Numbered from the stretch's first letter, positions 6,572 to 32,221 are shown. The stretch is DNA of 37,308 nucleotides from an uncultured Bacilli bacterium (GCA_944368945.1 CALVXH010000007.1:1-37308); one strand, 5' to 3'. Notes: generated by a model from the letters alone, not told the origin. Program-made: numbers and translations.

Positions 6572-6574
6572 ATA

Positions 6575-7300: not shown

Positions 7301-7301
7301 A

Positions 7302-11324: not shown

Positions 11325-12222
11325 TTTGATTGTCTCCTATTAGTGTTTCATCCTTAATAACAATTAAGGTATTGCTATAAGAATTTTCATCATCAGCAAA
11401 TTCTTTATATGAATAATTTTTATTCTTATATTCGTAAATTCCTTCATTAGATATAACAAGATAATAATTAGAATTATTTATATATCCATTAAGATCACTT
11501 AATCTAGTTTCTATTTTCTTTTTTACATATGAATCTAAATATAAATAAGTAATTAATAATACACTTACTGCACTAATTGCACTTATTCCATAATTAGATG
11601 ATATAAAAAATGTAATATAACCTACTTTAGGAATCTTTACTCCTGTATATAGTCCAATTACTTCATTAAAGGTAATTGGACTATCGCTAGCATTATTTGC
11701 ATCTCCTCTAGTAATAATTGTTGATTCATTTATATCTATTATTCTATGAACAATTCTTAAATTATCACTATTAACATAACAAATAATGTCATACTTTTTT
11801 AATTCATTAATACTATCTACACGTTTAAGAAATATTAAATCATTAACTTCAATTTGATTATTTAAATTTTCAGTAAATAAATAATCATTACTCTCGTTTT
11901 TATAAGACATGGAGCCAGTTTTAATAACTACACTCTTATAAGGAAAAGGGGTATTATTCATTATTTTTTCAGTTACACTTCCTATTAAAGCTAAGGCTAA
12001 AATAACTAAAACTATATCGAGTGATATATTATAAATAACTCTTAATACATTATGTTTCTTATTTAATTCCTTTTCTTTATTAACTTGCTTTTTATATAGA
12101 ATAGTTGAATCTTGTTTTCCATTAAGAATCTCTTTAGCTTCCTCTTTTCTTTCATAGATTAAGAAGATAACAATTCCTAAAGTAAAAACTATTAAAACAA
12201 CTAAAACTATATAAAAGACCAT
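11302..12222 (-). CDS. SipW-type signal peptidase I, module 2
   Basis: 306 aa from ATG 12222; a TTG at 12228 would add two residues, and neither start has a good ribosome binding site. One N-terminal membrane segment, a second at about residues 62-82, the catalytic domain outside, and a third segment near 205-228. Catalytic Ser in KTGSMSYKN (about Ser104). The general base is a His in IVHRII (about 159) rather than Lys, with the Asp of TRGDANN (about 174) behind it. This is the ER/archaeal-type arrangement of SipW. SipW peptidases process TasA/camelysin-like precursors encoded next to them. The proposed substrates are the 216-aa protein directly upstream and the 241-aa protein at 6575-7300. 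The cytosolic tail after the last membrane segment is Asn/Tyr rich. Confidence 0.9.
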   Translation of the reverse strand: MVFYIVLVVLIVFTLGIVIFLIYERKEEAKEILNGKQDSTILYKKQVNKEKELNKKHNVLRVIYNISLDIVLVILALALIGSVTEKIMNNTPFPYKSVVIKTGSMSYKNESNDYLFTENLNNQIEVNDLIFLKRVDSINELKKYDIICYVNSDNLRIVHRIIDINESTIITRGDANNASDSPITFNEVIGLYTGVKIPKVGYITFFISSNYGISAISAVSVLLITYLYLDSYVKKKIETRLSDLNGYINNSNYYLVISNEGIYEYKNKNYSYKEFADDENSYSNTLIVIKDETLIGDNQNERKEVY

Positions 12223-12231
12223 TTTCAAAAA

Positions 12232-12882
12232 TTAGTTCTCTGCCTCAATATTAATCGTATAACTTGAGACATTAGCAACGGCCGTTTTAAAAGCATCCAT
12301 TGTAGTAACAACATCATCAATCTCTACTGAACTTCCTGCACCATCATAATACAAACAAGGTGCGACTCCATCAAAAGTTGTTTCGTTCCAAGTCCATTCT
12401 AAGGTAACCTCTTTTATAAATTCACCTTCAGCTTGTTCTGTCCATACACCATCTGCCCATTTAGAATTACTTTCCGGCGATAAAGTCAAAATGTCTGGTG
12501 TATTAACGTATGTTTCAATATCAGTGGTTGTTTGATTGACAGCTGTTGTAATTTTTATTGACTTCAAATAATCAAGATTCTCTACAACAACTTTAAGTAC
12601 AAGTGTCAAAGTCATATTTCCACCACCGGTGCTCGTGACTCTTCCTTCAGTGTCTGCATCTGTAGGTTCAAATGATAAAGTATTTAGTCCACCTTTAAAT
12701 GATGCTTCTAAATTTAATACTTTATTTTCAATTAAAACTTCAGTAGGCTTTCCTGTGGTCAATTCCTTATTCTTAGTGCCACCTGTAATTACGTACGTTG
12801 CTAATGCTGTTCCAGTAATTGTTGCAAGTCCAAGCACCATTGCTCCAACGGCTAATAGTTTCTTGTTAAATTTTTTCTTCAT
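12232..12882 (-). CDS. TasA/camelysin-like secreted protein, first gene of module 2
   Basis: 216 aa. Signal peptide with basic start (MKKKFNKK) and hydrophobic core ending TGTALATYVITGG, the camelysin/SipW-dependent form (AxYx) rather than the GFxxW form of module 1. The body is beta-rich and compact. Near the C-terminus LEWTWNETTFDGVAPCLYYDG matches the W-x-x-x-F-x-G-x-x-P-x-x-YY motif seen in the tandem paralogues of module 1, which places it in the same family. It is the natural substrate of the SipW-type peptidase whose gene follows 4-10 bp downstream. In-frame TAA just upstream fixes the ATG at 12882. The nearest strong ribosome binding site (GGGGAG) is 27 nt away, but a small hairpin in between would restore normal spacing (see the regulatory entry). 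Confidence 0.8.
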   Translation of the reverse strand: MKKKFNKKLLAVGAMVLGLATITGTALATYVITGGTKNKELTTGKPTEVLIENKVLNLEASFKGGLNTLSFEPTDADTEGRVTSTGGGNMTLTLVLKVVVENLDYLKSIKITTAVNQTTTDIETYVNTPDILTLSPESNSKWADGVWTEQAEGEFIKEVTLEWTWNETTFDGVAPCLYYDGAGSSVEIDDVVTTMDAFKTAVANVSSYTINIEAEN

Positions 12883-17143: not shown

Positions 17144-18268
17144 CTATCCCCATATGGCGTATAATGTTAAGTCTTTTGTTACGGAAGTAAGCGAAGTAAA
17201 ATGGCCTGAATTCGGATTGATTATTGGATCAGTCCACCATCCTTTAAAGTCTAAATTTTCATTTTCATTATAACATTTTAATGAATCTTGATTTAAGTCG
17301 ATATAACTTCCGTATGTAATGCCCTCAAAACTTCTTATTTTTGTGGAAGATTCTTCAGGATTCGTCAAATCGCCAATAGTCCACTTTCCGCCATTAACAT
17401 CAAATGTCACCGTAAACGTTAAATCACTACCTATACCTTTAATGCTAAATAAATACCTCCGTGTATTTCCTGTTTTCTTATAAACTGCCCCTGAAGATTC
17501 TATGATATAAAAATCACCATCATCCCCTAAATCATTTGCTGGATAAGAATTTCCTGTAAACCATTGATTAGTTTTAGGTATTGGAACAAATATTTCATCC
17601 TGATCCCCGTTTGTATAACTAACTAATAAGCAATAATTTACATCGTCACTTTTACTTTCATCATACGTTATGGATACGATGCCAACTCCAGAATTCAAAT
17701 AAAATGGTTTTTCTGAAGTTCCATCTGTATATTGTATTGTTATTTCATAATTTCCATTTGAATCTGAGTTAATTAAAATATCACTAATACCCTTACCATC
17801 TTTTCCTTTATTAATTGTAAATGTCTCACTTATTGAACCATCGCTATACTGAAAAGATAAAGTAGTATTTCCTTCATCATCAAATCCAGAAATAACCTTA
17901 GTAACTTCCTTACCATCATCACCCTTATAAACTGGCACTGTAATTATAGTTGGTTCTTTATTAACATCAGTATAAGTAATAGTAATGGTAACTAAAGTTT
18001 TATCATCGTTTAATGTACTAACAACATTGGCTATTCCAACACCATCCGTACCATTAATAGCTTTTGGAATTGTAAATACTAAAGGATTTTTCCCTTCTTC
18101 AGCGAAATTTATTGTAACAATAACATTTCCATTATCGTCTGTCTCAACATTAGTATTTAAAATTGTCAAAGTATCATCACCAAAAAAAGCAGAACAACTT
18201 GTAACACCAAAACACCCGATAGAAACGCCAAGAATTATTTGAATCTTTCTAATAAAACTAAAATTCAT
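17144..18268 (-). CDS. Repeat lipoprotein with InlB-type C-terminus, module 1
   Basis: 374 aa. Lipoprotein signal with lipobox GVTSC (Cys25). Residues about 35-235 contain roughly 45-residue repeats built on I-x-YTD/YSDGS ... NGxDGxGI units (VTITITYTDVNKEPTIITVP, NKGKDGKGISDILI). The last 85 residues (VTFDVNGGKW ... FKGWWTDP ... LTLYAIWG) are of the InlB B-repeat/Flg_new type. Same architecture as the 370-aa lipoprotein of module 2, but the collagen-like Gly-x-x run is missing here. GAGGTGAT ribosome binding site formed by the end of the preceding gene. Predicted to be lipid-anchored with a repeat stalk outside the cell; it heads the lipoprotein / small protein / large protein cassette. Confidence 0.85.
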   Translation of the reverse strand: MNFSFIRKIQIILGVSIGCFGVTSCSAFFGDDTLTILNTNVETDDNGNVIVTINFAEEGKNPLVFTIPKAINGTDGVGIANVVSTLNDDKTLVTITITYTDVNKEPTIITVPVYKGDDGKEVTKVISGFDDEGNTTLSFQYSDGSISETFTINKGKDGKGISDILINSDSNGNYEITIQYTDGTSEKPFYLNSGVGIVSITYDESKSDDVNYCLLVSYTNGDQDEIFVPIPKTNQWFTGNSYPANDLGDDGDFYIIESSGAVYKKTGNTRRYLFSIKGIGSDLTFTVTFDVNGGKWTIGDLTNPEESSTKIRSFEGITYGSYIDLNQDSLKCYNENENLDFKGWWTDPIINPNSGHFTSLTSVTKDLTLYAIWG

Positions 18269-18272: not shown

Positions 18273-20747
18273 TCACCTCATTAAATTTTCTTTCAAATCA
18301 CTTACCTGAGGATCTTTATTAAATAACTCAGGCTCTTCTGTTAAAGAAACTTTACCATTAGTAATAAATTTAAAAGAGTTAAAACCAGCAGCATATAAAA
18401 CGCACTTAGATAAGACAGATAAAAGTTTGTCTATTAATCCTCCATCAACAGTTCCAGTGTATTTATTAACATTTGTAAGTAAATCAACATCTATCAAATC
18501 GCTAAAACTATTAATGTTATTAGTTAAATTATTTACAATTAATGAATTATTCATGCCACCTCCGTAAAAAGCAATCATAGTATTAATAAACTCTGAATCT
18601 TCTTTTATATATGTAAATTTATTTGAATTACATATGTCTTTTAAAATAGGTTTAATCGGAAAAAATTCGTCAATTGATAAATCAATATTTTCATCTAGAA
18701 CACTAGAAGCAAGTGAAGAAATTCTTTCTTCTACCAAACTTGTTGTGTCAATGTCATTAACATTTTTCCAATCATAAAATTTAGTATTACCTTCTAAAAC
18801 AATTTTTGAAGGCAAACTAGTCCCACCAAGTTTATTAGGAATATATGAATTAAGACCTTCTAAAACAGTTGCAACACTAGTAGAACCACCATTATAAAGA
18901 AATGGTCCATTAAATTCTGATTCTAACCCAATAGAGAATAATCCAGAATCATCGAATAAAGCTCCATCTAAAGTAACTTCACTTCCATACTCTTCGTTTG
19001 TATCAGTGTCTAAAGCATCTTGTAAAACTCTTAACGCTTCATACATTTCATCATTGTTTAGGAAAATTCCACTGCTATTTAAGCCTAAAAATTCTTCTAA
19101 AATCATATTTGCAGAAGCGACATTGGTTGAATAGATATCAAAGAAGTCACTAAATGGGACACTATATGCTTTACCACCAATAGTAACATTAATTGTCTTA
19201 GTAGTGTCATAAGGCTTAATAACGTTACTACCAACCTTTAAATTAAATTCACTACTTCTTGTAAGTATTGAATTTTTAATTAATAAGTTCTTTGTGTCAA
19301 ATGCTCTAACTAAATTTTTACCTAATCTAATAGTCGAGTTTTTAATTGTTACATCATTGCCCATTACTTCCACAACTGTCCCAGTAAAAGCATAATTACG
19401 CTTATTTGAATTATCATCAATATTTTGAATTCTTAAATCATTTAAAGTAATTCCATCAGCGTCAAGTAATAATCCAACATTATCTTGTCCATAAGCTTTA
19501 ACAATTACATTATCATTTTGACTTGGATCGCCTATTGTTACATAAGCAAGTGGTCCAAAGAAATAATCTTTTGTATAATCTGGAGCAAGTTTTTTAAGAT
19601 TAATGTCAATTTTTCCATTATTTGGGAAACACAAGTTATTCATATTAATTGAAAAACCATTTCCATAAAAATCTTTTTGCACTTTTATACCTACTTTTAT
19701 ATCTGTAGAAATATTTGTACCATATTTACTATTGTAGTCATCAATAAATTTATGATTATATGTAGTTTCCATATAAACTAATTCATTAGCAAAATTAAAT
19801 GTACCACTCTTTTCATCATAATTTCCAAATAAACTAATGTTTCCTTCTTTTTTAGTAAATGAAGGATCAATTTCATATTTATATATTCCTTGACTAGAAT
19901 AAGTAGGATCAATTTCAACATTTTTTCCTTCATAAACTTCTCTTAAACTACCAAGTGAAGTTTGCATTACTACTATTTCTCCACTACTAGAAAAATTAGT
20001 ACACATTAATAAGTCATTATAGTTATAAACATTTACTCCATCTTTAACTACATTAAATGTATAGGTGTTAGTGATAAATGGCTGTTCAGTACTTACTAAA
20101 GTAAAATATGAATTTTCGCTATAACTATTAATAGTCATAGTGTTATTTGAGTAAGTGATATTATCACTTTTTTCTAAAACACTTACTTTACCATTAGTGA
20201 CAGTATCACCAACTACATCAATATCAAATTCAATTTTGGCATTTACTTTATTTGCATTATCTAGTTTAACTTCATCATAACTTAAATCATACATTCCAAA
20301 GTATCTAGTAGGTTCAACTTGTTGACCTGACGAACTATATTTAGGATTAATTAAAATAGTTCCGTTTTCATAAATGATAGCTTTAAATTCTCTTTCAACA
20401 CTCTTTTTAATGTTTGAACATACAACTGTACATTCACCTTCTTTTAAAGCATATAAATAATAATTATTAGATTCATCTTCTTCAATTTTAGCGACGTCAG
20501 TATTTTCTTTAATATACCAAGTTAATTCATTATCAGGAGCTAAAATTAATACATCATCCATTATAGGAGTAGCCTTTAATTCATAACCAGCATCTCTAAT
20601 TTTAAAGCCTTCTTGATCTCTATAAGAAAAATTAATTCCACTAATATCACTAGCAACATTAATATTAAGTAAAACCACGCTTACAAAAGATATTAAACCA
20701 ATAACAAACGGAATAATTAATAAAATGATAAGAGTTTTATTTTTCAT
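18273..20747 (-). CDS. Membrane-anchored beta-helix surface protein, module 1
   Basis: 824 aa from the ATG at 20747, which has GGAGG 7 nt upstream and overlaps the permease stop as TAATG. An in-frame start at 20780 would add 11 residues inside the permease gene and lacks a ribosome binding site. Single hydrophobic segment at about residues 5-28, then a BIG2/Ig-like region (ELTWYIKENTDVAKI ... GECTVVCSN), then beta-helix-like strands (VTIKNSTIRLGKNLVRAF, NLLIKNSILTRSSEFNL at about 460-500). No LPXTG motif (ends KENLMR). Full-length paralogue of the partial protein at the left edge, in the same position after an ABC permease. Conserved adjacency suggests it works with, or is a client of, that transporter. 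Exact function unknown. Confidence 0.8.
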   Translation of the reverse strand: MKNKTLIILLIIPFVIGLISFVSVVLLNINVASDISGINFSYRDQEGFKIRDAGYELKATPIMDDVLILAPDNELTWYIKENTDVAKIEEDESNNYYLYALKEGECTVVCSNIKKSVEREFKAIIYENGTILINPKYSSSGQQVEPTRYFGMYDLSYDEVKLDNANKVNAKIEFDIDVVGDTVTNGKVSVLEKSDNITYSNNTMTINSYSENSYFTLVSTEQPFITNTYTFNVVKDGVNVYNYNDLLMCTNFSSSGEIVVMQTSLGSLREVYEGKNVEIDPTYSSQGIYKYEIDPSFTKKEGNISLFGNYDEKSGTFNFANELVYMETTYNHKFIDDYNSKYGTNISTDIKVGIKVQKDFYGNGFSINMNNLCFPNNGKIDINLKKLAPDYTKDYFFGPLAYVTIGDPSQNDNVIVKAYGQDNVGLLLDADGITLNDLRIQNIDDNSNKRNYAFTGTVVEVMGNDVTIKNSTIRLGKNLVRAFDTKNLLIKNSILTRSSEFNLKVGSNVIKPYDTTKTINVTIGGKAYSVPFSDFFDIYSTNVASANMILEEFLGLNSSGIFLNNDEMYEALRVLQDALDTDTNEEYGSEVTLDGALFDDSGLFSIGLESEFNGPFLYNGGSTSVATVLEGLNSYIPNKLGGTSLPSKIVLEGNTKFYDWKNVNDIDTTSLVEERISSLASSVLDENIDLSIDEFFPIKPILKDICNSNKFTYIKEDSEFINTMIAFYGGGMNNSLIVNNLTNNINSFSDLIDVDLLTNVNKYTGTVDGGLIDKLLSVLSKCVLYAAGFNSFKFITNGKVSLTEEPELFNKDPQVSDLKENLMR

Positions 20748-22363
20748 TAATTTACCTCCATGGAATAAAATCCTTTGCAAATCCTGCTTTTTATTTTAAC
20801 TAGTAAAGGTACAAGTAAGACTAAACTTATAATAACAATAGTTAAATATATGCCATATCCAGCTGATCCTAAAAAAGACATTAAAAACATGATTAATAAA
20901 ATAATTAATGGATATACAATACTTATTAAGTTAATTAAGTACTTAGTTTTAAATTTAGACTTATTTGATAAGTCATACATATCTAAATAAACTCCTAAAA
21001 TATTAGAAGCAACAATTAAAGCTAAGCCAATAACTAAACTAGAAAAGAATACACTTATTGAAATTGAGTTAGTTGATATTAAAACAATTTCGCTAATTAA
21101 AAGTGAGATACTACTTAAACTTGTAGGTAAAATTAATTTAGCAAGAATTTGCTTAAATGGATCGATAGGAATGTATTTAATAATTTCAAGAGATTTTCCT
21201 TCTCTAGAAATACTTAAAGTTGCACTACTATTAATAACTCCCATAAATAGTAAGATTAAAGTTAGACTAATTGCATTAGTTAATTCAGGAAACATATTTA
21301 AGAAAATTCTTAAGTTTTGATAAATTATTGAATTTAAACTACTAACAACTACAAAACTTAAAAATGGCATCATAATTAATAAAGAAGTATATGAAAAGAT
21401 ATAACTAGAATCTTTAAAAAGTAAATCTGTTTCTTTCTTTAATAAAGAAGAAAAACTAGACTTAATTTTTAATTCTACTTTTTTGCTATCTTTTTTAACT
21501 TTAGAACCCTTATTAAAATCAACTCTATTAAACTTATTAAAGAAGTAACTTGTTAAGTTAATTCCTATTAATGAGAATAAAATAATACTTCCTAAAAACA
21601 TCATTACAGCACTTAAATTTCCATTTCCATTAACAAAGCTTTCAAGTAAATTATTAATTGGAACTAAATATAATTTTGCGTTATGTAAAGCATTAATAAA
21701 TGAATCACTAAATGCTCCTCCAAAAGTTGAATCATTTAAAGCGGTTAAAAATAACTCTAAAACATATTTATAAATAAAGCATAAAATAATAACAACCACG
21801 CAAGCTAAAATAAATTGAATTAAATCGTGGCGCTTAATAAATTCATATAAATATTCAAAAGGTACTACTAAAGTTAAAGCAATTGCTACTACTAATATTG
21901 ATATAAATAAAGGATAGATAATTGATAAAACATAATACTGAGGGAAGAATCCTCTTAAGGCTCCATAACTAATAAGTAATGGAGTAGCAATAATTAAACT
22001 AAGTAAGACTTGTCTAGCATAAATAAATATTATTTTAGAAAAGATAATTTCTTCATTACTTACTGGAAGTACAAGCATAATTGAAGCATCGTCTTTATTA
22101 AACAAAGCTTTTCTAGCCATAAATAAAGAAGACACTATAGCAATTATAAACATGATAAAAATGAAAAATACTAAAAAGTCAAAGGTTCCATAACTAGAGT
22201 ATTTTTCAATCTTTTTGTCTAATTCAAGATAAATAAAACATTCTAAAGCAATAAATAACCCTGCAAAAACTGCCTTAAATAGCCAATTTAAAGCTAAACG
22301 GGATATTTTTTTCTTTCCTGTTCCATTTATTAAACGTTCTTTATTAATTAAATCAATTAGCAT
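20747..22363 (-). CDS. ABC-2 type exporter permease, module 1
   Basis: 538 aa, about 12 hydrophobic segments in two pseudo-repeated halves. Each half has a short cytosolic loop with acidic/basic residues followed by P and a membrane helix (KDDASIMLVLPVSNEEIIFSK near 100; REGKSLEIIKYIPIDPFKQI near 400). Starts 3 nt after the ATPase stop. Paralogue of the 536-aa permease at 1669-3279. Together with the upstream ATPase it would form a complete exporter. A 1-bp TAATG overlap couples it to the membrane-anchored beta-helix gene. Substrate unknown. Confidence 0.82.
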   Translation of the reverse strand: MLIDLINKERLINGTGKKKISRLALNWLFKAVFAGLFIALECFIYLELDKKIEKYSSYGTFDFLVFFIFIMFIIAIVSSLFMARKALFNKDDASIMLVLPVSNEEIIFSKIIFIYARQVLLSLIIATPLLISYGALRGFFPQYYVLSIIYPLFISILVVAIALTLVVPFEYLYEFIKRHDLIQFILACVVVIILCFIYKYVLELFLTALNDSTFGGAFSDSFINALHNAKLYLVPINNLLESFVNGNGNLSAVMMFLGSIILFSLIGINLTSYFFNKFNRVDFNKGSKVKKDSKKVELKIKSSFSSLLKKETDLLFKDSSYIFSYTSLLIMMPFLSFVVVSSLNSIIYQNLRIFLNMFPELTNAISLTLILLFMGVINSSATLSISREGKSLEIIKYIPIDPFKQILAKLILPTSLSSISLLISEIVLISTNSISISVFFSSLVIGLALIVASNILGVYLDMYDLSNKSKFKTKYLINLISIVYPLIILLIMFLMSFLGSAGYGIYLTIVIISLVLLVPLLVKIKSRICKGFYSMEVN

Positions 22364-22366: not shown

Positions 22367-23182
22367 TTAATCAATATCTCCATAAGTCTTAAAGAAAATC
22401 TTAGCAAGGTCTCTACGCTTAAGAGGTTCCTTTTTAAAATCTATTAATGTAGCAACTTTCCCATCTAAAATAATTGCTACTCTATCGCAAACCTTACTTA
22501 CTAATTCAATATTATGAGAAGTAATAAAAACTGTTCTACCATAGGTAGCAAATTGTTTAATCATCTTAAGTAAAACTTCATAAACCATAATATCAAGTCC
22601 AACAGTAGGTTCATCTAAAATCCAAATTTTAGGATTATGAATTAAAGAAGCCATTAGACAAATCTTTTGCTTCATACCATGAGAGTATTCTCTAATTTTT
22701 CTATCCATATCACTTGGAGTCATGCCAAACTTTTTAACTAAAAATTCATAATTCTTGTTAAAGGAAGATTGAATCATATTGTAGCTTGAAGCAATAAATT
22801 GTAAATATTCATTTCCTGTCATCATTTCATAAGTTACAGGTTCGCTAGGAACATATCCAAAAAGTTCTTTAGCTTTTAAAGGATCACGTTTAATATCTTT
22901 GCCAAATAAAAGTATCTCACCGCTAGTAGCCTCTTTTAAACCAACTATACAATCAATGGTTGTAGATTTACCTATACCATTTTTGCCAATAAATCCAAAA
23001 ACTTCTCCCTTTTTAACATCTAAATTTAGTCCTTTAAGTACTTCTTTATGACCATAACTTTTATATAAGTCTTTAATTTGGAGAGCATAGTCAATATCTT
23101 TAAACTCTAATTCTTGAGTATTAGAATCTTCATCAAAGGTGTTTTCTAAGTTTGTATTTTCGCTTACCTTATTTTCTTCCAT
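22367..23182 (-). CDS. ABC transporter ATP-binding protein, module 1
   Basis: 271 aa. Walker A FIGKNGIGKSTT, signature variant YSHGMKQKI, Walker B WILDEP followed by TVGLD, switch His in TSHNIEL. It has an acidic N-terminal extension of about 30 residues (EENKVSENTNLENTFDEDSN) that the module 2 ATPase lacks. ATG at 23182 has GGAGGG 9 nt upstream, inside the end of the zinc-ribbon gene, and is separated from that stop by one base. Forms the exporter with the permease downstream. Confidence 0.93.
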   Translation of the reverse strand: MEENKVSENTNLENTFDEDSNTQELEFKDIDYALQIKDLYKSYGHKEVLKGLNLDVKKGEVFGFIGKNGIGKSTTIDCIVGLKEATSGEILLFGKDIKRDPLKAKELFGYVPSEPVTYEMMTGNEYLQFIASSYNMIQSSFNKNYEFLVKKFGMTPSDMDRKIREYSHGMKQKICLMASLIHNPKIWILDEPTVGLDIMVYEVLLKMIKQFATYGRTVFITSHNIELVSKVCDRVAIILDGKVATLIDFKKEPLKRRDLAKIFFKTYGDID

Positions 23183-23183: not shown

Positions 23184-24608
23184 TTATCTCGCCCTCCTAA
23201 AACTCTTTATCCACATATAGTCATTTTCACTAGTTTTATTAAACGAATATGTTGCATGGCAATTTTCACAATGATAGTTAAATCCATCAAAAGTAATTTC
23301 AGATTTTCCACAAACTGGACATTTAGAAATAAATAGTTCTTTATCAGCATTAACAAGTAGTATTAATGAATTAACATAATTTTTAAAAAGTAAATCATGA
23401 TTCTTTTTATATAAAGATAAATTTAAAACGTTAGAATAATTACCTGATGAATTATTCATCGTAAATAAAGTTTTACTAATCCCTTTTTTTGAACTCATGA
23501 TTAAATTAATGTTTGCTTCATTTTCTAAACTATATTCAAGACTTGTTAAAAGATAATTTAAACTTCTTCTACTATTATCAACATTTGTGTTAACTCTAAT
23601 TGCTTTATCAATTAATCTAGTTTCAATATAAAAACCAAAATTATTATCATCTTCTTTTATAAGAAATGAGAACATGTCTTTTTTAAAAGCTAATGTAGAA
23701 AAATGGATTTTATTAGCTTTATCAAAATAGATATTCGCTTTATTTGAAAAACTAGTTTTGCCAATTTTATTTTTAGCTAAGTATTCAATTAAGGAAACAA
23801 ATACATAGTTATAATAATATGAATTTAATAAAGACTTGTCTTCGCTTTCAAAAGCATAATTTTCTTTATAAAACTTATAACAATAGCTATATAAAATATC
23901 ATGTAACAAAATATTAGTTGGCATTATAGTTCTATCTTTTTTGATTTTAGTAACATTAAGTTTATATAATTCACTATTCTTAATTAGTTTAACTTTATGT
24001 TCTAAAATCTTAAATAATTTATAGACTCTAACCTTATATGAACTTTCTTTAGAAAATAAATCAAGATCATCTCTAGATTCAAATTGATTTACTAAGCTAA
24101 ACTCTCCATATGTTAATCCAGTAACTTCAAATTCTTCTTCAATTGATAAAGTAATTGGTGCTAAACTGCTTAAAATATCTTTAATTTCTGCACTAATTTC
24201 ATTTACAAGTAAAGCAATAAATGTATTTTCATATGTAATTAATGAATCATAACTTTCTAAACTATGAACATATTCTGGTGAAATATCTTTACCTTTATAC
24301 TTCCAGTTTTTAACATCTTTCATAGTCTTTAAGAATGACTCTGTTGATAATGAAGGAGATAATTCACTTCTTAAAATAATTTCTCGACTTTCTTGCTTAA
24401 TATGAGGGCGATAAACAATCGAAGTAATCTTGTCTAATACTTCTTTAATTTTAAGTCCTCTATTATAACTATCTTCATAATCAAAGCGTTTATAAAGATT
24501 AATCTTTTCATTAAAAAGAGCATCATAAAGATTAGTAAATGATTTGTCTTTATTTACTAATCTTTTAAGCTTATTTGTTATTTCAACTAGATACTCTTTT
24601 TTCTCCAT
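23184..24608 (-). CDS. DUF2357/McrC-like protein with C-terminal zinc ribbon, module 1
   Basis: 474 aa, soluble. SLITYENTFIALLVNEIS (about residue 125) corresponds to the YENRF block of the module 2 homologue. LTYGEFSLVNQF and PTNILLHDILYSYCYKFYK match its LSYGEF and PTNILLDD segments. The C-terminal zinc ribbon is C430-x2-C433-x13-C447-x2-C450. About 100 residues longer than the module 2 copy. No convincing PDDEXK nuclease residues were seen. It lies 27 bp after the AAA+ ATPase gene, and this gene pair is kept in both modules, as McrB/McrC-type pairs are. The likely role is partner of the ATPase, with the zinc ribbon contacting nucleic acid or protein (inference). Family link is moderate and should be tested by profile search. 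Confidence 0.62.
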   Translation of the reverse strand: MEKKEYLVEITNKLKRLVNKDKSFTNLYDALFNEKINLYKRFDYEDSYNRGLKIKEVLDKITSIVYRPHIKQESREIILRSELSPSLSTESFLKTMKDVKNWKYKGKDISPEYVHSLESYDSLITYENTFIALLVNEISAEIKDILSSLAPITLSIEEEFEVTGLTYGEFSLVNQFESRDDLDLFSKESSYKVRVYKLFKILEHKVKLIKNSELYKLNVTKIKKDRTIMPTNILLHDILYSYCYKFYKENYAFESEDKSLLNSYYYNYVFVSLIEYLAKNKIGKTSFSNKANIYFDKANKIHFSTLAFKKDMFSFLIKEDDNNFGFYIETRLIDKAIRVNTNVDNSRRSLNYLLTSLEYSLENEANINLIMSSKKGISKTLFTMNNSSGNYSNVLNLSLYKKNHDLLFKNYVNSLILLVNADKELFISKCPVCGKSEITFDGFNYHCENCHATYSFNKTSENDYMWIKSFRRAR

Positions 24609-24635
24609 ATAAACGTATTCCTATTTAATAATTAA

Positions 24636-26459
24636 TTAAAACTTTCTTAATAATTTGTTGATTTCGTGATTGGTGTATTTAAATTCATCACCAGGATAAG
24701 TTTTAGCAATTAACGATCTTAATTCGATTAAGCCTTGCTTAATATATTCTTCGAATCGGCCTTCAAGTTTTGAAACTACTTTTCTAGAGAACATAAAGTC
24801 GATTGCATCATCCTTTTTGCCTCCGCAAGCCACATATACTGGGGCAAAGTTATCAATTTGATTCATAATACGGTTACCAATAGTTAAATCAAATTTATTA
24901 TATGTAAATTCGATTAAACTTCTTAATTTTGTATAGTCTTCACTCTTCATTTGGTAACTACTAGTTTCCTTGGCTTCTTTAAATAATTCCATTAATTTGT
25001 CATAACTTAAAGATATCTTAGTAACATCTTCATCAACACTAAATGGGATATTTTGGTCATCAAATAAAATTGTAATTGCTCTATCATAAACCTTATCTGT
25101 AATAGTATAAGTTGAATCATCTTTATTTGCTGTACCAATAAACCATGTGTTACATGGTATCTTCAATATGCCATCTTCAAGATGATTTGGAGCTTCAAAA
25201 TCATAAGGAAGTTGCATAATCTTTAAATACCATTTATCCATTGGATATTCTAAAATTGATAAGAAATCTGCAAAGTAATATTCTACACGGCTAATATTTA
25301 CTTCATCTAAAACCATTAAATTCATATGATGTGGTTTATAAGTTGCATCATATAATCTTTTTAGAAACTCAGTTTCGTTATATGTCTTTGAAAAGTCATT
25401 ATAGAATCCAAGAAGATTAGTTCTATCTCTCCAAGTAGCCTGTACAGGTTCGAAATAAGAATCTTCACTAATAAAATCACTAAAATAACGAGCAAGAGAA
25501 GATTTACCTGTTCCAGAAAGTCCTTCAAGAATAATTAATCTTGAACTTGCTAAGCCAGCTATAAAAGCTCTAATAGTATGAATATCAAAATATAACTTTT
25601 CTTGCTTAGCTAAATATTTTCTTAATTTATCACTTAAAACTCCTAATGTAATATTATTATCAAAAGTTTCTTCTCTATTTGCTTCATTAATAACATCAAT
25701 TGAACATAATCCAGGGAAGACAATCTCTTTTGCTTTTAAAGTAGATTCTTTTAAAGAAGTGTCTCCATTAAACTCACCACTAGCACTTCCAACTCCTTGT
25801 CCTACTATATTGTTGCCTGTTCCACTAGTAGGATTAGATTCGCCAAAACTTTGAGCGAGTTGACCTTGTTCATCATATTTTTCTTCCTCTTCTTCTTTAG
25901 CTTTTGCTTCAGCTTCTTCAAGTTCTTTATTTCTAATACCAAAGAATCTATAAGGCTTATCAATATTTTTGAAGTTTACATATAATGCACATATTCCAAA
26001 AATAATTGCGCCAAGAATTACACTAATAATAGTTCCGACAACTACACTTTCTAAAAATAAAAGTAAGTTATTTCCCATTAAAGTAAGATCATAAGGATAT
26101 TGAGCACAAAGACCAATTGCTAAAGCAAGTGCTAAACAAATTACAAAAGTAACTAAATAAACAATAAGCCATTTTTTAGAAAAGCGACGCTCTTCATAAT
26201 AAGCTGCTAGTCTCATTTCATATATAAATGCAATAGCAAATACTAAAATATAAACAAGGAAGCAACATTCCATAATATAAAATTGAATACTTCCAGTTAT
26301 TGATGGAAATCCAAAACTACTACCTAATAATGCAATTGGATTATTTGCCTTAATAAAAGATCCCGCATCTAAGCAAATTGCAGCTAATAATACAATTACA
26401 AGATAAAAGAATATAATCGATATAGCGATAAAATTCTTTCTAGTAAAATATGTTTTCAT
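24636..26459 (-). CDS. Membrane-anchored McrB-like AAA+ ATPase, module 1
   Basis: 607 aa. Four membrane segments (about residues 8-31, 60-82, 97-120, 132-162), a charged Glu/Lys-rich stretch (about 178-195) that may be a short coiled coil, a Gly/Ser-rich linker, then the AAA+ domain. Walker A is GLSGTGKS (313-320), Walker B LMVLDE (381-386), sensor region GTANKDDS (442-449), then TITDKVYDR with a candidate arginine finger at Arg460, and a helical lid containing TIGNRIMNQI. ATG at 26459 overlaps the signal peptidase stop (ATGA). The ATPase faces the cytosol. Coupled to a signal peptidase on one side and a DUF2357-like zinc-ribbon protein on the other, as in module 2. Possible roles are envelope assembly, quality control or defence; none is shown by sequence alone. 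Confidence 0.85.
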   Translation of the reverse strand: MKTYFTRKNFIAISIIFFYLVIVLLAAICLDAGSFIKANNPIALLGSSFGFPSITGSIQFYIMECCFLVYILVFAIAFIYEMRLAAYYEERRFSKKWLIVYLVTFVICLALALAIGLCAQYPYDLTLMGNNLLLFLESVVVGTIISVILGAIIFGICALYVNFKNIDKPYRFFGIRNKELEEAEAKAKEEEEEKYDEQGQLAQSFGESNPTSGTGNNIVGQGVGSASGEFNGDTSLKESTLKAKEIVFPGLCSIDVINEANREETFDNNITLGVLSDKLRKYLAKQEKLYFDIHTIRAFIAGLASSRLIILEGLSGTGKSSLARYFSDFISEDSYFEPVQATWRDRTNLLGFYNDFSKTYNETEFLKRLYDATYKPHHMNLMVLDEVNISRVEYYFADFLSILEYPMDKWYLKIMQLPYDFEAPNHLEDGILKIPCNTWFIGTANKDDSTYTITDKVYDRAITILFDDQNIPFSVDEDVTKISLSYDKLMELFKEAKETSSYQMKSEDYTKLRSLIEFTYNKFDLTIGNRIMNQIDNFAPVYVACGGKKDDAIDFMFSRKVVSKLEGRFEEYIKQGLIELRSLIAKTYPGDEFKYTNHEINKLLRKF

Positions 26460-27541
26460 AACGTATCATTCCCTTTCTCATCAATTGATGAACCACTTTT
26501 TTTATTAAATTTATTTTTAATTTTATTTAATAGACTATTTTCTTTTTTAGCTAATTCTTCTTTTTCCTTTTCTTTTTCTTTAGCTATAGATTCTTCTTTA
26601 ACTTTATTTAATTCATTTTCACTTAATTCTAATTTTTTGATATATTTTCCTTCTTCATATGTATATTCATAATTTTTGTAGTACAACTTTTCTAAATCTT
26701 TATAGATAAATACTTTATTTGGATCTTCTAATGTTTCTAGATTTATTTCTAAATCTTTAATTAATAGTTCTTTTCTAGAGTAAACCGCTTCTTCGTATTT
26801 ACTCTTAAAATGATCAAACATTAGTAAGCAATAGATAATAGAAATGATTGTAATAATTCCACTATTAGATTGAAGGAAAATAACAAATACACCAACCAAT
26901 TGAATTCTAAAGTTTGTATAATGTCCAATAATCTTATCATAAGTTAAATAACCTTCATATAATCTATTAGTATCATCAACGTTATTTGAGTCTCCTCTAG
27001 TTACATAGGTTCCATTACTATTAATACCAACAACTCTATGAACGTAAATTATATTATCTTGCCCATAAAAAGAAACTACATCATAAAGTTTAATATCATC
27101 TTGAGAATCATACTTTTCTATTCCGATAATGTCATAAGTATTAAATTGATTATCAAGATGATATGTTTCTAAATATGTATTAGCTGGATTACGTTCAGAC
27201 ATTGATCCACTTGATATAACTACATAGCCTGTATCACCAAATAATAAGTTATTATTAAAAAATCTTGAATATACACTAAAGCCAAAAAACACTAATACGA
27301 CTGCAAGCACAGAATAACTAGCTATTTGTGAAATAGTCTTTTTAATATTGCCTTTTTTATTATCTTTTGATTCTTTAAATTCTTCTAAAGCAAATTCAAT
27401 AATCGCAACATCATCTCTACCTTTAGTTATGCTTTCTATATTAGATAAATAGTAACTTCTAAATAAAAAAGTAAAGACAAGACAAAAACTAATTAAACAA
27501 ATAGCTGTAACAACAAGCGAAAGTATTTCTATATTACTCAT
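26456..27541 (-). CDS. SipW-type signal peptidase I, module 1
   Basis: 361 aa. Membrane segments at about residues 5-27, 72-91 and 212-240. Catalytic Ser113 in VISSGSMSE, general-base His168 in IYVHRVV, and Asp184 in TRGDSNN form the SipW/ER-type active site (His in place of the Lys of classical LepB). A cytosolic C-terminal tail of about 115 residues is strongly charged (EKEKEKEELAKKEN) and probably coiled-coil, an extension absent from the module 2 copy. GGAGG lies 9 nt upstream of the ATG, and the start overlaps the preceding stop as TAATG. Six candidate substrates lie directly upstream and more downstream (16433-17122, perhaps 13719-16430). Confidence 0.9.
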   Translation of the reverse strand: MSNIEILSLVVTAICLISFCLVFTFLFRSYYLSNIESITKGRDDVAIIEFALEEFKESKDNKKGNIKKTISQIASYSVLAVVLVFFGFSVYSRFFNNNLLFGDTGYVVISSGSMSERNPANTYLETYHLDNQFNTYDIIGIEKYDSQDDIKLYDVVSFYGQDNIIYVHRVVGINSNGTYVTRGDSNNVDDTNRLYEGYLTYDKIIGHYTNFRIQLVGVFVIFLQSNSGIITIISIIYCLLMFDHFKSKYEEAVYSRKELLIKDLEINLETLEDPNKVFIYKDLEKLYYKNYEYTYEEGKYIKKLELSENELNKVKEESIAKEKEKEKEELAKKENSLLNKIKNKFNKKSGSSIDEKGNDTL

Positions 27542-28266
27542 TAATCCATACCTCCACTAATTGATATCACTAACTTAGTAGAATTTAATGCTTCACCTAG
27601 TTTTGAAAAGGCAATTAAGTCTTCAATTTTGGTATTTTCATATTCACCCGGATTTTGATTATTAAAGACACTTCCCCGATAAAAAGTGAATTTTTGCGTG
27701 ATATTTGCTTTATAATATGTAAAATTTTGTTCATTTAACACATCATAACTAACACTAGTTTTTATATATTTATCATTAATTAATCCTTTATTATTTTTAT
27801 TTAATTTAAATCTAAGTGGTTTCTCAGATAAACATGAAATATCAACATAATTTATAGGATTAGATAAAATAGAAAATGCTTGGTAATTAGTAAAAGAAAG
27901 TTCAATATAGATATTTGAAGAATCTATAAAATCATTAAAGCTAATTACTTCATATGTTAATGTAAAACTTAAATTTTCATTATTCTCACTTCCAGTAATA
28001 TAAAATCCATCGCCAGGATCTTTTACATTTTGACTACTACCATTTGAGTCAAAAACTACTGATAAATCGGTCTCGCTATTCGTTAAAGTACTAATAACTA
28101 AACTTTTATTTTTAATGTCATTATTTATTGTTATTGATACATTGTCATAATCTGTATCAATTGAACCATTAACTATCCAACTAGCAAACCCTAATGAAAC
28201 TATAGAAAAAGAAGCTATCAAGAAAATAGCGTTAATCATAAAAATTTTCTTACTTCTTTTTCTCAT
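27541..28266 (-). CDS. TasA/camelysin-like secreted protein, tandem copy 6
   Basis: 241 aa. Basic start (MRKRSKK), hydrophobic core ending VSLGFASWIVNGS with the GF(S/A)xW(I/V) signal motif. Shares with the upstream copies the mid-protein GDGFYITGSENNENLSF block and a C-terminal QKFTFYRGSVFNNQNPGEYEN segment, a diverged form of WGxxFxGxxPxxYY. Closest to copy 5 (28289-28966). Followed with a 1-bp overlap by the SipW-type peptidase gene. AAGG about 8 nt upstream of the ATG. Predicted to be translocated and then cleaved just before or within the FASW segment. Confidence 0.78.
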   Translation of the reverse strand: MRKRSKKIFMINAIFLIASFSIVSLGFASWIVNGSIDTDYDNVSITINNDIKNKSLVISTLTNSETDLSVVFDSNGSSQNVKDPGDGFYITGSENNENLSFTLTYEVISFNDFIDSSNIYIELSFTNYQAFSILSNPINYVDISCLSEKPLRFKLNKNNKGLINDKYIKTSVSYDVLNEQNFTYYKANITQKFTFYRGSVFNNQNPGEYENTKIEDLIAFSKLGEALNSTKLVISISGGMD

Positions 28267-28288: not shown

Positions 28289-28966
28289 TTAGAAACTAGG
28301 AGTAATAGTGATCTTAAAATTTTTGTCACTCATAGCAGCCTCAGCAGCAGTTTCAAAGTTTTTCAAATTTGTAATTAAGTTGGTATAAGCTTCTCCATCA
28401 CCTACAGCAACTTTACATGGATTTTTACCTTTAAACACTGATCCCCAAGCGAATGTCCATTCATGAGTAACTGTCGCACTTGAACCATCATATTTAACTG
28501 ATACGCCTTCGTTAATAGTAGTATCAGTTCCATTTAATGTAATATTTGTCACATTTAAACAATCAGCATTAATATAATTAGAAGTTGCTAAACCTCTTAT
28601 GCCTTGAAAATCTCCCGAATAAGTGTATGTTACATTTACTGGATTAACAGCACTAAATCCACTAACACTTGTAACTGTATAAACTACTTTAAATGTCAAA
28701 TCTTCTTTATCCCCATCACCTGTTATTAATCCATTGCCTTCTGTTCCGTCAGAATCAAAAGTAACAGTACCATCAGTTTGTGAATCGTCAATACTAATGA
28801 TTAAATTATTTCCAGTTACACTTCCAACTGTAAAAGTAATATTTTGATTTTCTTCTGTACTACCATTAATTACCCAAGCAGAAAATCCAACTGTTCCTAA
28901 GCTAATAGTAGCTAGAAGTAAAACACCTTTTAAAGTTGATTTTTTTCCTTTATTTAATAATTTCAT
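28289..28966 (-). CDS. TasA/camelysin-like secreted protein, tandem copy 5
   Basis: 225 aa from the ATG at 28966, which has AGGAG 7 nt upstream. An in-frame start at 29017 would overlap the previous gene by 41 bp and has no such site. Signal peptide core ends SLGTVGFSAWVINGS. Mid-protein GNGLITGDGDKEDLTFK and C-terminal WTFAWGSVFKGKNPCKVAV correspond to the family blocks, with the final YY pair replaced by a loop ending in AYTN. Rich in Thr/Val beta strands. Likely a SipW-processed surface or filament subunit by analogy with TasA. Confidence 0.8.
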   Translation of the reverse strand: MKLLNKGKKSTLKGVLLLATISLGTVGFSAWVINGSTEENQNITFTVGSVTGNNLIISIDDSQTDGTVTFDSDGTEGNGLITGDGDKEDLTFKVVYTVTSVSGFSAVNPVNVTYTYSGDFQGIRGLATSNYINADCLNVTNITLNGTDTTINEGVSVKYDGSSATVTHEWTFAWGSVFKGKNPCKVAVGDGEAYTNLITNLKNFETAAEAAMSDKNFKITITPSF

Positions 28967-28976
28967 AAATAGTCTC

Positions 28977-29780
28977 CTATTGTTTATTAATGCCGTTAAT
29001 TTCGGCTTTAATTTCAATATTTAGTTTTTTATTATTCAATGCTGATTGAAAACCTTCTAATTCTTCAGTCATTAAATTTAAATATGTTAAATATTGCTTT
29101 TTGTTAATTTTAGAACTGCTTAATTCTTTTTTATATTCATCAATTTTTAATTGGTAATATGTTTCTGGAGTTGATGAATTAAAGAATGTGCCATATTCAA
29201 TTTTAACTTTTATATTTTTAGTGGCTATTTTATATCCACTTACTTCCTTGTAATCAATAAAATCTCCATAAACCAAATGTTCACTATTGATTGATAAACT
29301 TAGATAAGAATAATTCAAACTTTGGTTTCTACCAAAGTTTGAATTATTACTAACAATGTTGCTATCTATATTATTTGATGAATCATTAGCATTAAGGCTT
29401 AAAACAATATTGCCAATTTCAGTGTTGTTTTTTTCTTCCTGTGTTTTATTAGAATTTTCGATTTCTTGAAAATATGAAGTCGGTAAGATTACTTCGGATT
29501 TTAATAAAGGATCAGTTACACTAATATTATTTTCATCTTTAGAGGTGATTCCTTCTCCTCCTGTTTCACCATCAAAATTTATTGTATTAACATTGTAGTT
29601 TCCTTCACAAAATATTGTTTCGTGTTTATAGCCATCAACAGTTACAACTGAACTAAAAGATGATTCACTATTATCCCAAGAAATAATCCATGTAGAAAAA
29701 GCAATTGAACCTAGCGATACAATTGCCGCGCCACAAATTAATATAGGTAATAAGTTATTTCTTTTAATTTTACTTTTCAT
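28977..29780 (-). CDS. TasA/camelysin-like secreted protein, tandem copy 4
   Basis: 267 aa. Signal core ends SLGSIAFSTWIISWDNSE. The C-terminal region has IEYGTFFNSSTPETYYQLK, matching the WGxxFxxxxPxxYY block of its neighbours with Tyr for Trp, followed by a helical charged tail (KKELSSSKINKKQYL). No ribosome binding site is visible; the ATG overlaps the preceding stop as ATGA, so translation probably depends on coupling. An 18-bp perfect inverted repeat lies inside the gene (29309-29348), coinciding with the family's Gly-Arg-x-x-Ser block (FGRNQSLNYSYLSL). Confidence 0.78.
   Translation of the reverse strand: MKSKIKRNNLLPILICGAAIVSLGSIAFSTWIISWDNSESSFSSVVTVDGYKHETIFCEGNYNVNTINFDGETGGEGITSKDENNISVTDPLLKSEVILPTSYFQEIENSNKTQEEKNNTEIGNIVLSLNANDSSNNIDSNIVSNNSNFGRNQSLNYSYLSLSINSEHLVYGDFIDYKEVSGYKIATKNIKVKIEYGTFFNSSTPETYYQLKIDEYKKELSSSKINKKQYLTYLNLMTEELEGFQSALNNKKLNIEIKAEINGINKQ
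29309..29348 (-). repeat. Perfect 18-bp stem-loop inside a coding sequence
   Basis: Plus-strand left arm AATAATTCAAACTTTGGT (29309-29326), 4-nt loop ttct, right arm ACCAAAGTTTGAATTATT (29331-29348), without mismatch. It lies within the 267-aa gene. There is no T-tract after it on either strand, so it is not a standard intrinsic terminator. An RNase III-type processing site or a pause site in the polycistronic mRNA is possible (inference). Confidence 0.85.
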
Positions 29781-30547
29781 AATGAATTATTAAACGTCAC
29801 ATTTAATGTTGCTTTCACAGTTATAGCTTTTCCACTTAATTTAGTGTTCATTGCATTTAATTCGTTTTCCATTTGACTTAACATTTTTAATTTTGCTTCT
29901 GCCGAGGCATTATTTTGATTTGCAGAATTAAATTTTTTCTGATAATACGTTGAAGGATTTTCTCCATCAAATAAAGTTCCCCATTTAAAAGATAATTTTG
30001 AATATGGATTACCTAAAAATGAATCTAAAGAGTAAAGTGTATAATTTCCAATAGTTTCTTCATTAAAATATTTTTTTAAATTATCTACTCCCTCTATATT
30101 TGACCAGTCTAGTTCCAAAAAAGTATATCTATCTGAACTTCTACCAAATAAATCATTTTTGCTATCAACTGAGTAAGATAAATCAGAATCAGAAGAATTT
30201 AAAATTTCAAAATTTATAGAATTAAATTTCCCGCTATTTTTGTGAAATGCTACATCAAAACTTGAAACATTAACCTCTAAATTATTATCAGAATTTTTTA
30301 CATAAATTTGTCCATTAATATTTTCACTATTTACTTCTCCTATTTTTATACTATTAGAAGCAAGCTTTATATCAATATATTTCGTTCTATCTTTAGTTGT
30401 ATCTACTTGAATATTAGTAAACTCTGCATTAACTTCAGTTTGAAATAACCCTATAATCCACGATGAAAAGCCAACTGTTGCTATCGCTATAGTTGCACAT
30501 CCAATTACGATTATATTTATTTTGTTATTTCTTTTTTTAATAGACAT
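29777..30547 (-). CDS. TasA/camelysin-like secreted protein, tandem copy 3
   Basis: 256 aa. Basic start (MSIKKRNNK), hydrophobic core ending ATVGFSSWIIGLFQTE. Family blocks: NGQIYVKNSDNNLEVN in mid-protein, LFGRSSDRYTFLELDW, then LSFKWGTLFDGENPSTYYQKKF, followed by an amphipathic helical tail (SAEAKLKMLSQMENELNAMN). Same length and layout as copy 2. ATG at 30547 follows the preceding stop by two bases with no recognisable ribosome binding site, again suggesting coupled translation. Confidence 0.8.
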   Translation of the reverse strand: MSIKKRNNKINIIVIGCATIAIATVGFSSWIIGLFQTEVNAEFTNIQVDTTKDRTKYIDIKLASNSIKIGEVNSENINGQIYVKNSDNNLEVNVSSFDVAFHKNSGKFNSINFEILNSSDSDLSYSVDSKNDLFGRSSDRYTFLELDWSNIEGVDNLKKYFNEETIGNYTLYSLDSFLGNPYSKLSFKWGTLFDGENPSTYYQKKFNSANQNNASAEAKLKMLSQMENELNAMNTKLSGKAITVKATLNVTFNNSL

Positions 30548-30549: not shown

Positions 30550-31320
30550 TTATTTTACAAGGCTTAATTTAAAAGTGATTTTTTTATTATTTAATTCTTT
30601 ATTCATAGTTGTTAATTCATTATTAACATTTTCTATTAAAGTTATTAATTCACTAGTATCTTTGCCTGATCTATCTATTGAATTATAATAAGTAACTGGA
30701 CTTTTACCACCAAAATAAGTACCCCAATCTAATGACAATTTTGTAGTATCTTCAGCTGCACCATTGATTGTTGACTTATTCAAAGTATATTCAATATACC
30801 CATCATTCCCTGGCTCAACACGCGTAAAATTTTCGTCAAAAGTAAGTGTTACTGGTTTAAAAGTCAAATATGACCATGACTCACTGCCACTTCTTCCTAC
30901 ATTATTTACAGTTGTTTCTAAGAATGAATTTGCTGTATCATCAAGTTCAATTTTCACTCCGATAAAGTTATTATCAGTTTGAGTCTTTTCACTTAATAAT
31001 ACATTAATACTATCAAATGAAAATTTTAAAGCATTCCCATCAATAGTTAATCCACTAGGAGAATCTCCTTTAGACAAATCTTTAGCTGTTATAATTCCAC
31101 TGTTTGATTCAGGAACTGAAGTTTCTGCAATGACTATCTTTTGATTCGTTGAAGAAGCACTTAAATATTGTGCGTCATTAGTCACTACTGTATCAACATT
31201 AATAGTTGTTGCGCTACTAGTTTCACTTTGTTGTAATCCAACAATCCACGCTGAAAAGCCAACAGTTCCTAAAGAAATTACAGCAAAACCACAAACTATT
31301 TTTAAAACTTTTTTATTCAT
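30550..31320 (-). CDS. TasA/camelysin-like secreted protein, tandem copy 2
   Basis: 256 aa. Short start (MNKKVLK) and hydrophobic core ending SLGTVGFSAWIVGLQQSE. Family blocks: SGIITAKDLSKGD, NVGRSGSESWSYLTFK, and LSLDWGTYFGGKSPVTYYNSI, followed by a helical tail (ELITLIENVNNELTTMNKEL). ATG at 31320 has GAGG 7 nt upstream. The conserved Trp-Gly / Pro / Tyr-Tyr block near the C-terminus, plus the helical tail, is shared by copies 1-4 and is a candidate subunit-subunit interface (inference). Confidence 0.8.
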   Translation of the reverse strand: MNKKVLKIVCGFAVISLGTVGFSAWIVGLQQSETSSATTINVDTVVTNDAQYLSASSTNQKIVIAETSVPESNSGIITAKDLSKGDSPSGLTIDGNALKFSFDSINVLLSEKTQTDNNFIGVKIELDDTANSFLETTVNNVGRSGSESWSYLTFKPVTLTFDENFTRVEPGNDGYIEYTLNKSTINGAAEDTTKLSLDWGTYFGGKSPVTYYNSIDRSGKDTSELITLIENVNNELTTMNKELNNKKITFKLSLVK

Positions 31321-31333: not shown

Positions 31334-32185
31334 TTACTCTAAGGAAGCAAGTAAGTTCAATGTTTTAGGAACCCAGGAATCTGTTGCATTATGTTCAGTT
31401 CTTGGGCCATACATAAAAACTTGTTTCATTGCTAGTAATTCATTATAAACGAAATCAACATCTTCAATACTATTTGTAAGTTTATTATTAGCATATAACT
31501 TATTATAGTAATTCGATGGGCTTGCTATATATTTTGGTTCAGACGAATCAATGCCGAAAAAATTGCCCCACTTAAATAGTTTCGCAGTACTATTTGTATA
31601 TGTGTATGTAATATCGCCGTCATTATCTTGATATGTCCAGCCAGATTTTGCTTCATCAACAGATGTAGGAAGTGTTAATGTTTTAAACTCATCAGCAATA
31701 TCAATATATTTATAATCACCGACTGTATGAGTTTTTGTCTCTTCTTGGATGGATACTTGATTTCCAGTTGCAGCACTATTGTCAACTTCCTCAAGGTTTA
31801 AACCAGTGCCAGTAGTATTAAAATCAATTTTAATTGCTGTAGGTTTATTTGCTACATCTTTACCAACTTGAAGAGTCAATTTAATGCTAACATTAAAATC
31901 AGTTTCTTTCTCATCATTTCCAGTAATTGTAATATAACCACCATCACTTGAAGTTTTTTCACCGATCCAAACTTGATTATCTTCTTCTTCTAAGATTTCA
32001 AACGTAAAATTAATATTATTTTTTTGAGCTGTATCAACAGATACTGAAACATTACCATTAGCATTTCTTTGATTAACACCAACTATCCATGTAGCAAAAC
32101 CTGTTGTTAATAAGGCTACTGCACCAAAGGCTAATAAACCATTAACAACCCATTTCCTCTTCTCAGAGAATCTCAGTTTTCTCAT
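31334..32185 (-). CDS. TasA/camelysin-like secreted protein, tandem copy 1 (first gene of module 1)
   Basis: 283 aa from the ATG at 32185, which has GGAGG 8 nt upstream; an in-frame GTG at 32200 overlaps that ribosome binding site and is unlikely. Basic start (MRKLRFSEKRK), hydrophobic core ending LLTTGFATWIVGVNQ. Family blocks: DGGYITITGNDEKETDF, KLFKWGNFFGIDSSEPKY with ASPSNYYNKLY (an insertion separates the two halves of the motif), and a C-terminal helical segment. It is the promoter-proximal gene of a 15-gene run and so probably the most abundantly made member. Confidence 0.82.
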   Translation of the reverse strand: MRKLRFSEKRKWVVNGLLAFGAVALLTTGFATWIVGVNQRNANGNVSVSVDTAQKNNINFTFEILEEEDNQVWIGEKTSSDGGYITITGNDEKETDFNVSIKLTLQVGKDVANKPTAIKIDFNTTGTGLNLEEVDNSAATGNQVSIQEETKTHTVGDYKYIDIADEFKTLTLPTSVDEAKSGWTYQDNDGDITYTYTNSTAKLFKWGNFFGIDSSEPKYIASPSNYYNKLYANNKLTNSIEDVDFVYNELLAMKQVFMYGPRTEHNATDSWVPKTLNLLASLE

Positions 32186-32221
32186 CTTATATACCTCCAC
32201 TCAGGAATCGAGAAATAATAA

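Follow-up and report, generated by a model that had tools for sequence, protein, structure and literature searches.

Given that an initial annotation of a 37,308-nucleotide stretch of DNA from an uncultured Bacilli bacterium (GCA_944368945.1 CALVXH010000007.1:1-37308; hereafter the window) had described an McrB-like AAA+ ATPase with a membrane anchor, encoded next to a DUF2357-like protein, and had proposed a repurposed McrBC-like machine acting at the membrane, we asked whether this locus encodes a restriction or defence system that is tethered to the membrane, or a motor that has been turned to another task at the cell surface. The four-helix anchor, the loss of the nuclease and an operon shared with export genes, as far as they can be read from sequence, argue for the proposed repurposing. 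We refer to this ATPase and its partner as module 1, and to a related pair at 8407-11324 as module 2 (Table 1).

The ATPase and its DUF2357 partner

Both open reading frames of module 1 were recovered where they had been placed, on the minus strand, and encode proteins of 607 and 474 amino acids. The description of the first as McrB-like held up: a profile search returned AAA_5 with an E value of 9.5e-4, under the curated cut-off, and the Walker A (GLSGTGKSS), Walker B (VLDE) and sensor-1 (GTANKDDST) motifs are intact. The Walker A Lys, the Walker B Asp-Glu, the sensor-1 Asn and the NxD Asp, together with a DR pair and a GNR motif, are invariant in all 66 homologues. GTANKDDST matches the abbreviated NxD signature by which Bell et al. 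define one branch of McrB proteins (PMC11090510), and by its sequence the ATPase belongs to this branch. Comparison with the AAA of a canonical NxD McrBC pair from a genome of the same family (locus L159) gave 3e-24 in BLASTP and 1.6e-23 in hhalign, and a sequence-only search of the PDB returned a weak match to McrB (6hz4, E 0.82). A motif in the linker, LAxSFG, was near-universal in 22 sequences but is present in only about 40 of the 66 homologues, and we make no claim for it.

The four N-terminal membrane segments are likewise borne out. In the AlphaFold model of the ATPase (mean pLDDT 83.8), four long N-terminal helices span residues 7-30, 58-87, 95-118 and 125-164, and hydropathy finds four hydrophobic segments in 56 of the 66 homologues and five in the other 10. 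The mean number of Lys plus Arg over these homologues is 3.2 at the N-terminus, 2.0 in loop 1, 4.6 in loop 2, 0.4 in loop 3 and 3.7 in loop 4, a pattern that puts the AAA domain and the two termini on the cytosolic side. The protein is thus predicted to consist of a four-helix, cytosol-in membrane anchor and a cytosolic AAA domain.

The partner had been called DUF2357-like, and its relatives bear this out. Taken alone, it does not reach the Pfam DUF2357 model in a profile search; it does align with Pfam-matched homologues, including the invariant YEN motif, which itself aligns to the DUF2357 signature of a canonical McrC. The module 2 partner matches the model directly, as do 38 of the 75 aligned partner homologues, and in relatives the gene immediately next to the ATPase repeatedly gives such a match, also in cases where it is an orthologue of the module 1 partner. 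With the model of the module 1 partner (mean pLDDT 91.7), the best fold match in the PDB is McrC, weakly, at ranks 1 and 3 (6hz4, E 0.016; 6ut6, E 0.097), and a sequence-only search of the same database returned chiefly zinc ribbons. These searches do not place the partner in an unrelated family, and its C-terminal zinc ribbon, which may bind protein or nucleic acid, is present as described.

We also find the partner to lack a PDDEXK nuclease, as had been claimed. None of the 75 partners of the four-transmembrane (4-TM) type contains the pattern PD-x(n)-(D/E)xK, for which shuffles of the set give 1.0 on average, whereas the canonical McrC of L159, our control, has an intact site (PDYTLEVY...HFDAK). 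The control shares with the module 1-type partner a stretch W...P..V....D....NRF. Beyond residue 270, no acidic or basic position is conserved at 60% among the 75 partners, and high conservation is confined to one Phe, the CPxC...CxxC zinc ribbon and one Trp. In the model this region runs helix, three strands, helix, strand, an order that would fit a decayed nuclease fold. Both subunits are homologous to McrB and McrC, as they would be in an active type IV restriction system that is membrane-tethered merely by chance. Such a system would, however, need the missing nuclease site; in addition, the ATPase model leaves no room for a modified-base reader domain beyond the anchor and a disordered linker, and the operon is shared with export genes. 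We consider this reading very improbable.

Table 1. Features of the two modules in the window, in descending order of coordinates, and double-type ATPases of four other loci
Feature	Position	Strand	Basis
Module 1 small secreted protein, SipW-type signal, first gene of string	31334..32200	(-)	signal sequence
Module 1 small secreted protein, SipW-type signal and WG[ST]xF..xPxxYY motif	30550..31320	(-)	signal, motif
Module 1 small secreted protein, SipW-type signal and WG[ST]xF...NPxxYY motif	29777..30547	(-)	signal, motif
Module 1 small secreted protein, SipW-type signal and G[ST]xF..xPxxYY motif	28977..29780	(-)	signal, motif
Module 1 small secreted protein, SipW-type signal	28289..29017	(-)	signal sequence
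Module 1 small secreted protein, SipW-type signal, candidate peptidase substrate	27541..28266	(-)	signal sequence, position
Module 1 SipW-like (Ser/His, ER-type) signal peptidase, long C-terminal tail past last TM segment	26456..27541	(-)	NF046067 3.6e-13, TIGR02228 7.3e-13
Module 1 membrane-anchored NxD McrB-like AAA+ protein, 607 aa	24636..26459	(-)	motifs, profile, model, homologues
ATPase N-terminal four-helix membrane domain (predicted), residues 1-165	25965..26459	(-)	AlphaFold helices, hydropathy, loop charges
Sensor-1/McrB signature TANKDDST, NxD variant, residues 443-450	25110..25133	(-)	N445, D447, S449 invariant, 66 homologues
Module 1 DUF2357 (McrC-like) partner, C-terminal zinc ribbon, 474 aa	23184..24608	(-)	profile matches of homologues, fold, alignment
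YEN motif of DUF2357 domain, residues 126-128	24225..24233	(-)	invariant 75/75
C4 zinc ribbon CPVCG...CENC, residues 430-450	23259..23321	(-)	four Cys invariant 75/75; PDB zinc-ribbon matches
Module 1 ABC transporter ATPase	22367..23182	(-)	TIGR01188 8.8e-53
Module 1 ABC-2-type permease, ~12 TM	20747..22363	(-)	PF16949 3e-5, just under cut-off
Secreted exoprotein, ~820 aa, conserved operon	18273..20780	(-)	protein of this size after permease in most of 80 loci
Lipoprotein, ~370 aa, conserved operon	17144..18268	(-)	lipobox, conserved position
Module 2 small secreted protein, SipW-type signal	12232..12882	(-)	signal sequence
Module 2 SipW-like signal peptidase	11302..12228	(-)	TIGR02228 5.1e-16, over cut-off
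Module 2 membrane-anchored NxD McrB-like AAA+ protein, 595 aa	9537..11324	(-)	motifs, tree
Module 2 DUF2357 partner with zinc ribbon, 376 aa	8407..9537	(-)	PF09823 3.4e-9
Module 2 lipoprotein of conserved set	7302..8414	(-)	PF09479 1.6e-7; counterparts in L070-L072, L144, L150, L151
Module 2 ABC permease (1669-3279) and ABC ATPase (3276-4025)	1669..4025	(-)	phmmer to module 1 genes 6e-47, 9e-88
L165 double-type ATPases	6999-8381, 10226-11659
L172 double-type ATPases	1567-2964, 5186-6622
L180 double-type ATPases	6964-8334, 10186-11598
L078 double-type ATPases	5440-6810, 8466-9902

A conserved operon around the pair

The initial annotation had stopped at the pair and an adjoining signal peptidase; the conserved unit is an operon of about nine genes, and not a restriction locus. 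It comprises small secreted proteins, the SipW-like peptidase, the ATPase, the DUF2357 protein, an ABC-2 exporter, an exoprotein and a lipoprotein. To describe it we used the best 80 of 476 relatives in a collection with one genome per species; these loci are the closest relatives, so that the counts below hold for this branch, not for the family at large. The DUF2357 gene lies no more than 300 nt downstream of the ATPase in 76 of 78 loci. Upstream, a SipW-like peptidase is found within 3.5 kb in 67 of 72 loci (within 300 nt in 63), and small secreted proteins in 62 of 64; downstream, the ABC ATPase and the permease each recur in 64 of 69, followed in most of the 80 loci by the ~820-aa exoprotein and then the ~370-aa lipoprotein. 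Next to the ATPase we saw no recurrent methylase or other restriction gene. Named carriers among the 80 loci include Candidatus Onthovivens, Coprobacillus, Anaeroplasma, Oscillospiraceae, and unclassified Bacilli and Clostridia. The full operon is present in a record named Anaeroplasma bactoclasticum (L107); the Anaeroplasma lineage is wall-less, and the structure made may therefore not need a peptidoglycan wall. Upstream of module 1, an 840-aa protein (34337-36859) has a weak match to a sigma-70 region at residues 218-297 (1.9e-5, below the cut-off) and is a possible regulator.

The peptidase retains the Ser/His motifs of ER-type enzymes, with the HR motif kept in 75 and the Ser-Met motif in 67 of 76 homologues. 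Against NF046067, the SipW equivalog model, scores are 49.5 and 57.2 bits with a cut-off of 190, for which reason we call the peptidases SipW-like and not SipW. Among the secreted proteins of the operon, 86 of 150 carry a WG[ST]xF...P..YY motif, compared with 4 of 214 background proteins. A SipW-like Ser/His peptidase beside small secreted proteins with SipW-type signals recalls the SipW-TasA-TapA system of Bacillus. The secreted proteins here lack detectable sequence homology to TasA or camelysin: a 38-member profile matched nothing in the PDB and nothing of relevance in NCBIfam, and to speak of a fibre is hence a guess. To our knowledge, the Bacillus biofilm fibre operon contains neither an AAA/DUF2357 pair nor an ABC exporter. 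Genome-level co-occurrence of peptidase and ATPase was uninformative, such peptidases being almost everywhere in these genomes: they occur in 48 of 59 genomes of relatives and the ATPase family in 38, so that they are also found where the ATPase is absent and, in general, do not depend on it.

Module 2 repeats the same arrangement, as had been noted, and is a second, divergent copy of the module 1 pair. Between the modules lies a gene for a 903-aa secreted protein (13719-16430), which gives a weak signal for a Hint domain (hedgehog/intein type; E 0.0092, under the cut-off) around residue 656. The genome of the window also has a double-type system (see below) on another contig (G000 contig C29, locus L057, 8133-12561), and thus holds at least three of these ATPase systems.

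Over 66 loci, six components of the operon have diverged together, with distance correlations r of 0.67-0.90; the largest partial correlations link the DUF2357 protein to the permease (0.47) and the ATPase to the peptidase (0.45). Correlated distances are expected of a unit that is inherited together and cannot by themselves show physical contact.

A candidate role at the cell surface

Taken together, these observations suggest that the locus probably encodes a nuclease-free, membrane-anchored motor derived from McrBC which, with the SipW-like peptidase and the ABC exporter, exports, matures or assembles a surface structure. Its building blocks would be the small secreted proteins of this operon. 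By analogy with McrB, which does so in solution, the ATPase would form a hexameric ring, here on the inner face of the membrane, and the DUF2357 protein would dock on the ring and stimulate hydrolysis, as McrC does; the ring might apply force to, or gate, the peptidase, the exporter or the precursor proteins. Since the nuclease is lost and the ring would be fixed in the membrane beside a peptidase, an exporter and exported proteins, mechanical work on proteins appears likelier than the cutting of nucleic acid. We put forward more tentatively, as a possibility, that low-GC Gram-positives and their wall-less relatives have here a new type of energy-driven machine for surface assembly or export, in which a membrane-embedded McrB ring and its DUF2357 activator drive the assembly or release of SipW-processed subunits.

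As a clue to the substrate, the partial correlation between ATPase and peptidase is a hint only. It would also suit a quality-control or remodelling chaperone for membrane proteins, in a role like that of the MoxR-type NorQ and RavA, which would act on the peptidase or the ABC exporter and not on exported subunits. RavA and NorQ are among the fold matches of the ATPase model, and the long tail of the peptidase is predicted to be cytosolic. The fold matches are, however, typical of the broad AAA clade, with MCM helicases first, and the partner here is a DUF2357 protein, whereas that of MoxR systems is a VWA protein; we regard such a chaperone as unlikely.

The main rival to a role in surface export is a membrane-anchored defence system, in which the DUF2357 protein or its zinc ribbon would sense foreign nucleic acid and the ATPase would trigger a response at the membrane or surface, with the export genes as effectors; cells might respond by abortive infection or by altering their surface so that phages are blocked. 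Outside the present type, the NxD McrB branch is linked to defence (PMC11090510), and the nearest soluble relatives, on plasmids, adjoin kinases, a toxin-antitoxin pair and a helicase, with DUF2357 neighbours as well. The PADLOC candidate PDC-M26A, on which a literature search found no paper, matches the AAA domain at 7.5e-39, but we discarded it as a sign of defence because it is unspecific and matches the whole NxD AAA branch. Against a defence role, the operon is stable across families and not islanded, we saw no recurrent methylase or restriction gene alongside, and a single contig carries two divergent copies. Moreover, among 72,556 plasmid and 50,697 phage records, none matches over 80% of the ATPase, and only two phage records match at all. 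Defence thus strikes us as a rather improbable function of this operon.

Relatives and described systems

A tree of the wider family separates four types: the 4-TM type of the window, a 1-TM type with coiled-coil partners, a 12-TM type, and a double type, in which two ATPases surround one DUF2357 gene. The 4-TM proteins form a single clade (SH-aLRT 99), with modules 1 and 2 in two subclades, which stands beside the 1-TM type; together with the 1-TM and double types they make up a larger clade (SH-aLRT 99) that excludes the soluble plasmid relatives. Built quickly and with long outgroup branches, the tree leaves its deepest forks unsure. Partners of the 1-TM type end in charged, coiled-coil-like sequence, with a charged fraction at the C-terminus of 0.54 versus 0.28 in the 4-TM type. 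This type also sits with SipW-like peptidases (2.9e-15 to 1.5e-24), and in 11 of 22 loci a gene for a membrane protein with an EAL motif (c-di-GMP phosphodiesterase-like) lies near the peptidase (L059-L063, L076, L077, L162, L167, L170, L174; L062 confirmed by Pfam at 1.5e-66, the others by motif only), an association that points towards control of a surface trait by c-di-GMP.

Of the systems described so far, CoCoPALM comes closest: NxD McrB proteins with FtsB-like TM segments beside signal peptidases, to which Bell et al. (2024, PMC11090510) give one paragraph, leaving a fuller account to a later paper; our literature search found no such paper. CoCoPALM and the present system share the NxD McrB-type AAA, an N-terminal transmembrane part, the DUF2357 partner and signal peptidase neighbours. 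They differ in that the CoCoPALM GTPase carries an FtsB-like TM segment and a coiled coil, and here four TM helices, and in that coiled coils there are usually on both proteins, whereas the partner here ends in a zinc ribbon. The 1-TM/coiled-coil type fits the published description, and the 4-TM/zinc-ribbon branch is a separate clade. Escherichia coli McrBC shares an AAA module and a DUF2357 module, but has an NxxD signature in place of NxD; the four TM helices, the export operon and the missing nuclease site set the present system apart. With CoCoNuTs it has in common the NxD branch, the nearest soluble plasmid relatives having kinase and DUF2357 neighbours, and in some CoCoNuT McrC proteins the nuclease is inactivated and zinc ribbons are present (PMC11090510). 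CoCoNuTs are, however, described as soluble, with predicted RNA-binding and nuclease domains (PMC11090510), none of which we see here.

That NxD McrB proteins go together with transmembrane segments and signal peptidases is therefore already known from the 2024 account of CoCoPALM. As far as we found in the literature, the 4-TM zinc-ribbon branch, the complete nine-gene operon, the branch-wide loss of the nuclease, the candidate substrates and the EAL link of the sister type are new. If the motor does work at the surface, a motor from defence now serves as a machine of the cell surface and has been retained in Bacilli, Clostridia and Anaeroplasma, and the CoCoPALM idea gains a concrete conserved operon of nine genes, with named parts and candidate substrates. 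The role of an NxD McrB protein would then become testable without phages, and matches to DUF2357 or PDC-M26A could not be read as defence genes by default.

In L165, L172, L180 and L078, the two ATPase genes of the double type show 98-100% DNA identity across the AAA domain (~1.1 kb) but have differing N-terminal anchors; in L057, L073 and L074 the identity is just 76-79%. The near-identical AAA domains look like the result of recent gene conversion, and the arrangement suggests a mixed ring of two kinds of subunit. The 12-TM AAA protein, of ~900 aa, has the same NxD signature (L047, 106-2877; L058; L068; L177-L179) and is paired with a ~520-aa protein that has a C4 zinc motif near residue 420. 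On an unverified phage-labelled contig (L185, 4633-9196), a soluble NxD ATPase is followed by a 689-aa gene in the position of the partner; in the tree, a long branch places this ATPase close to the 12-TM type.
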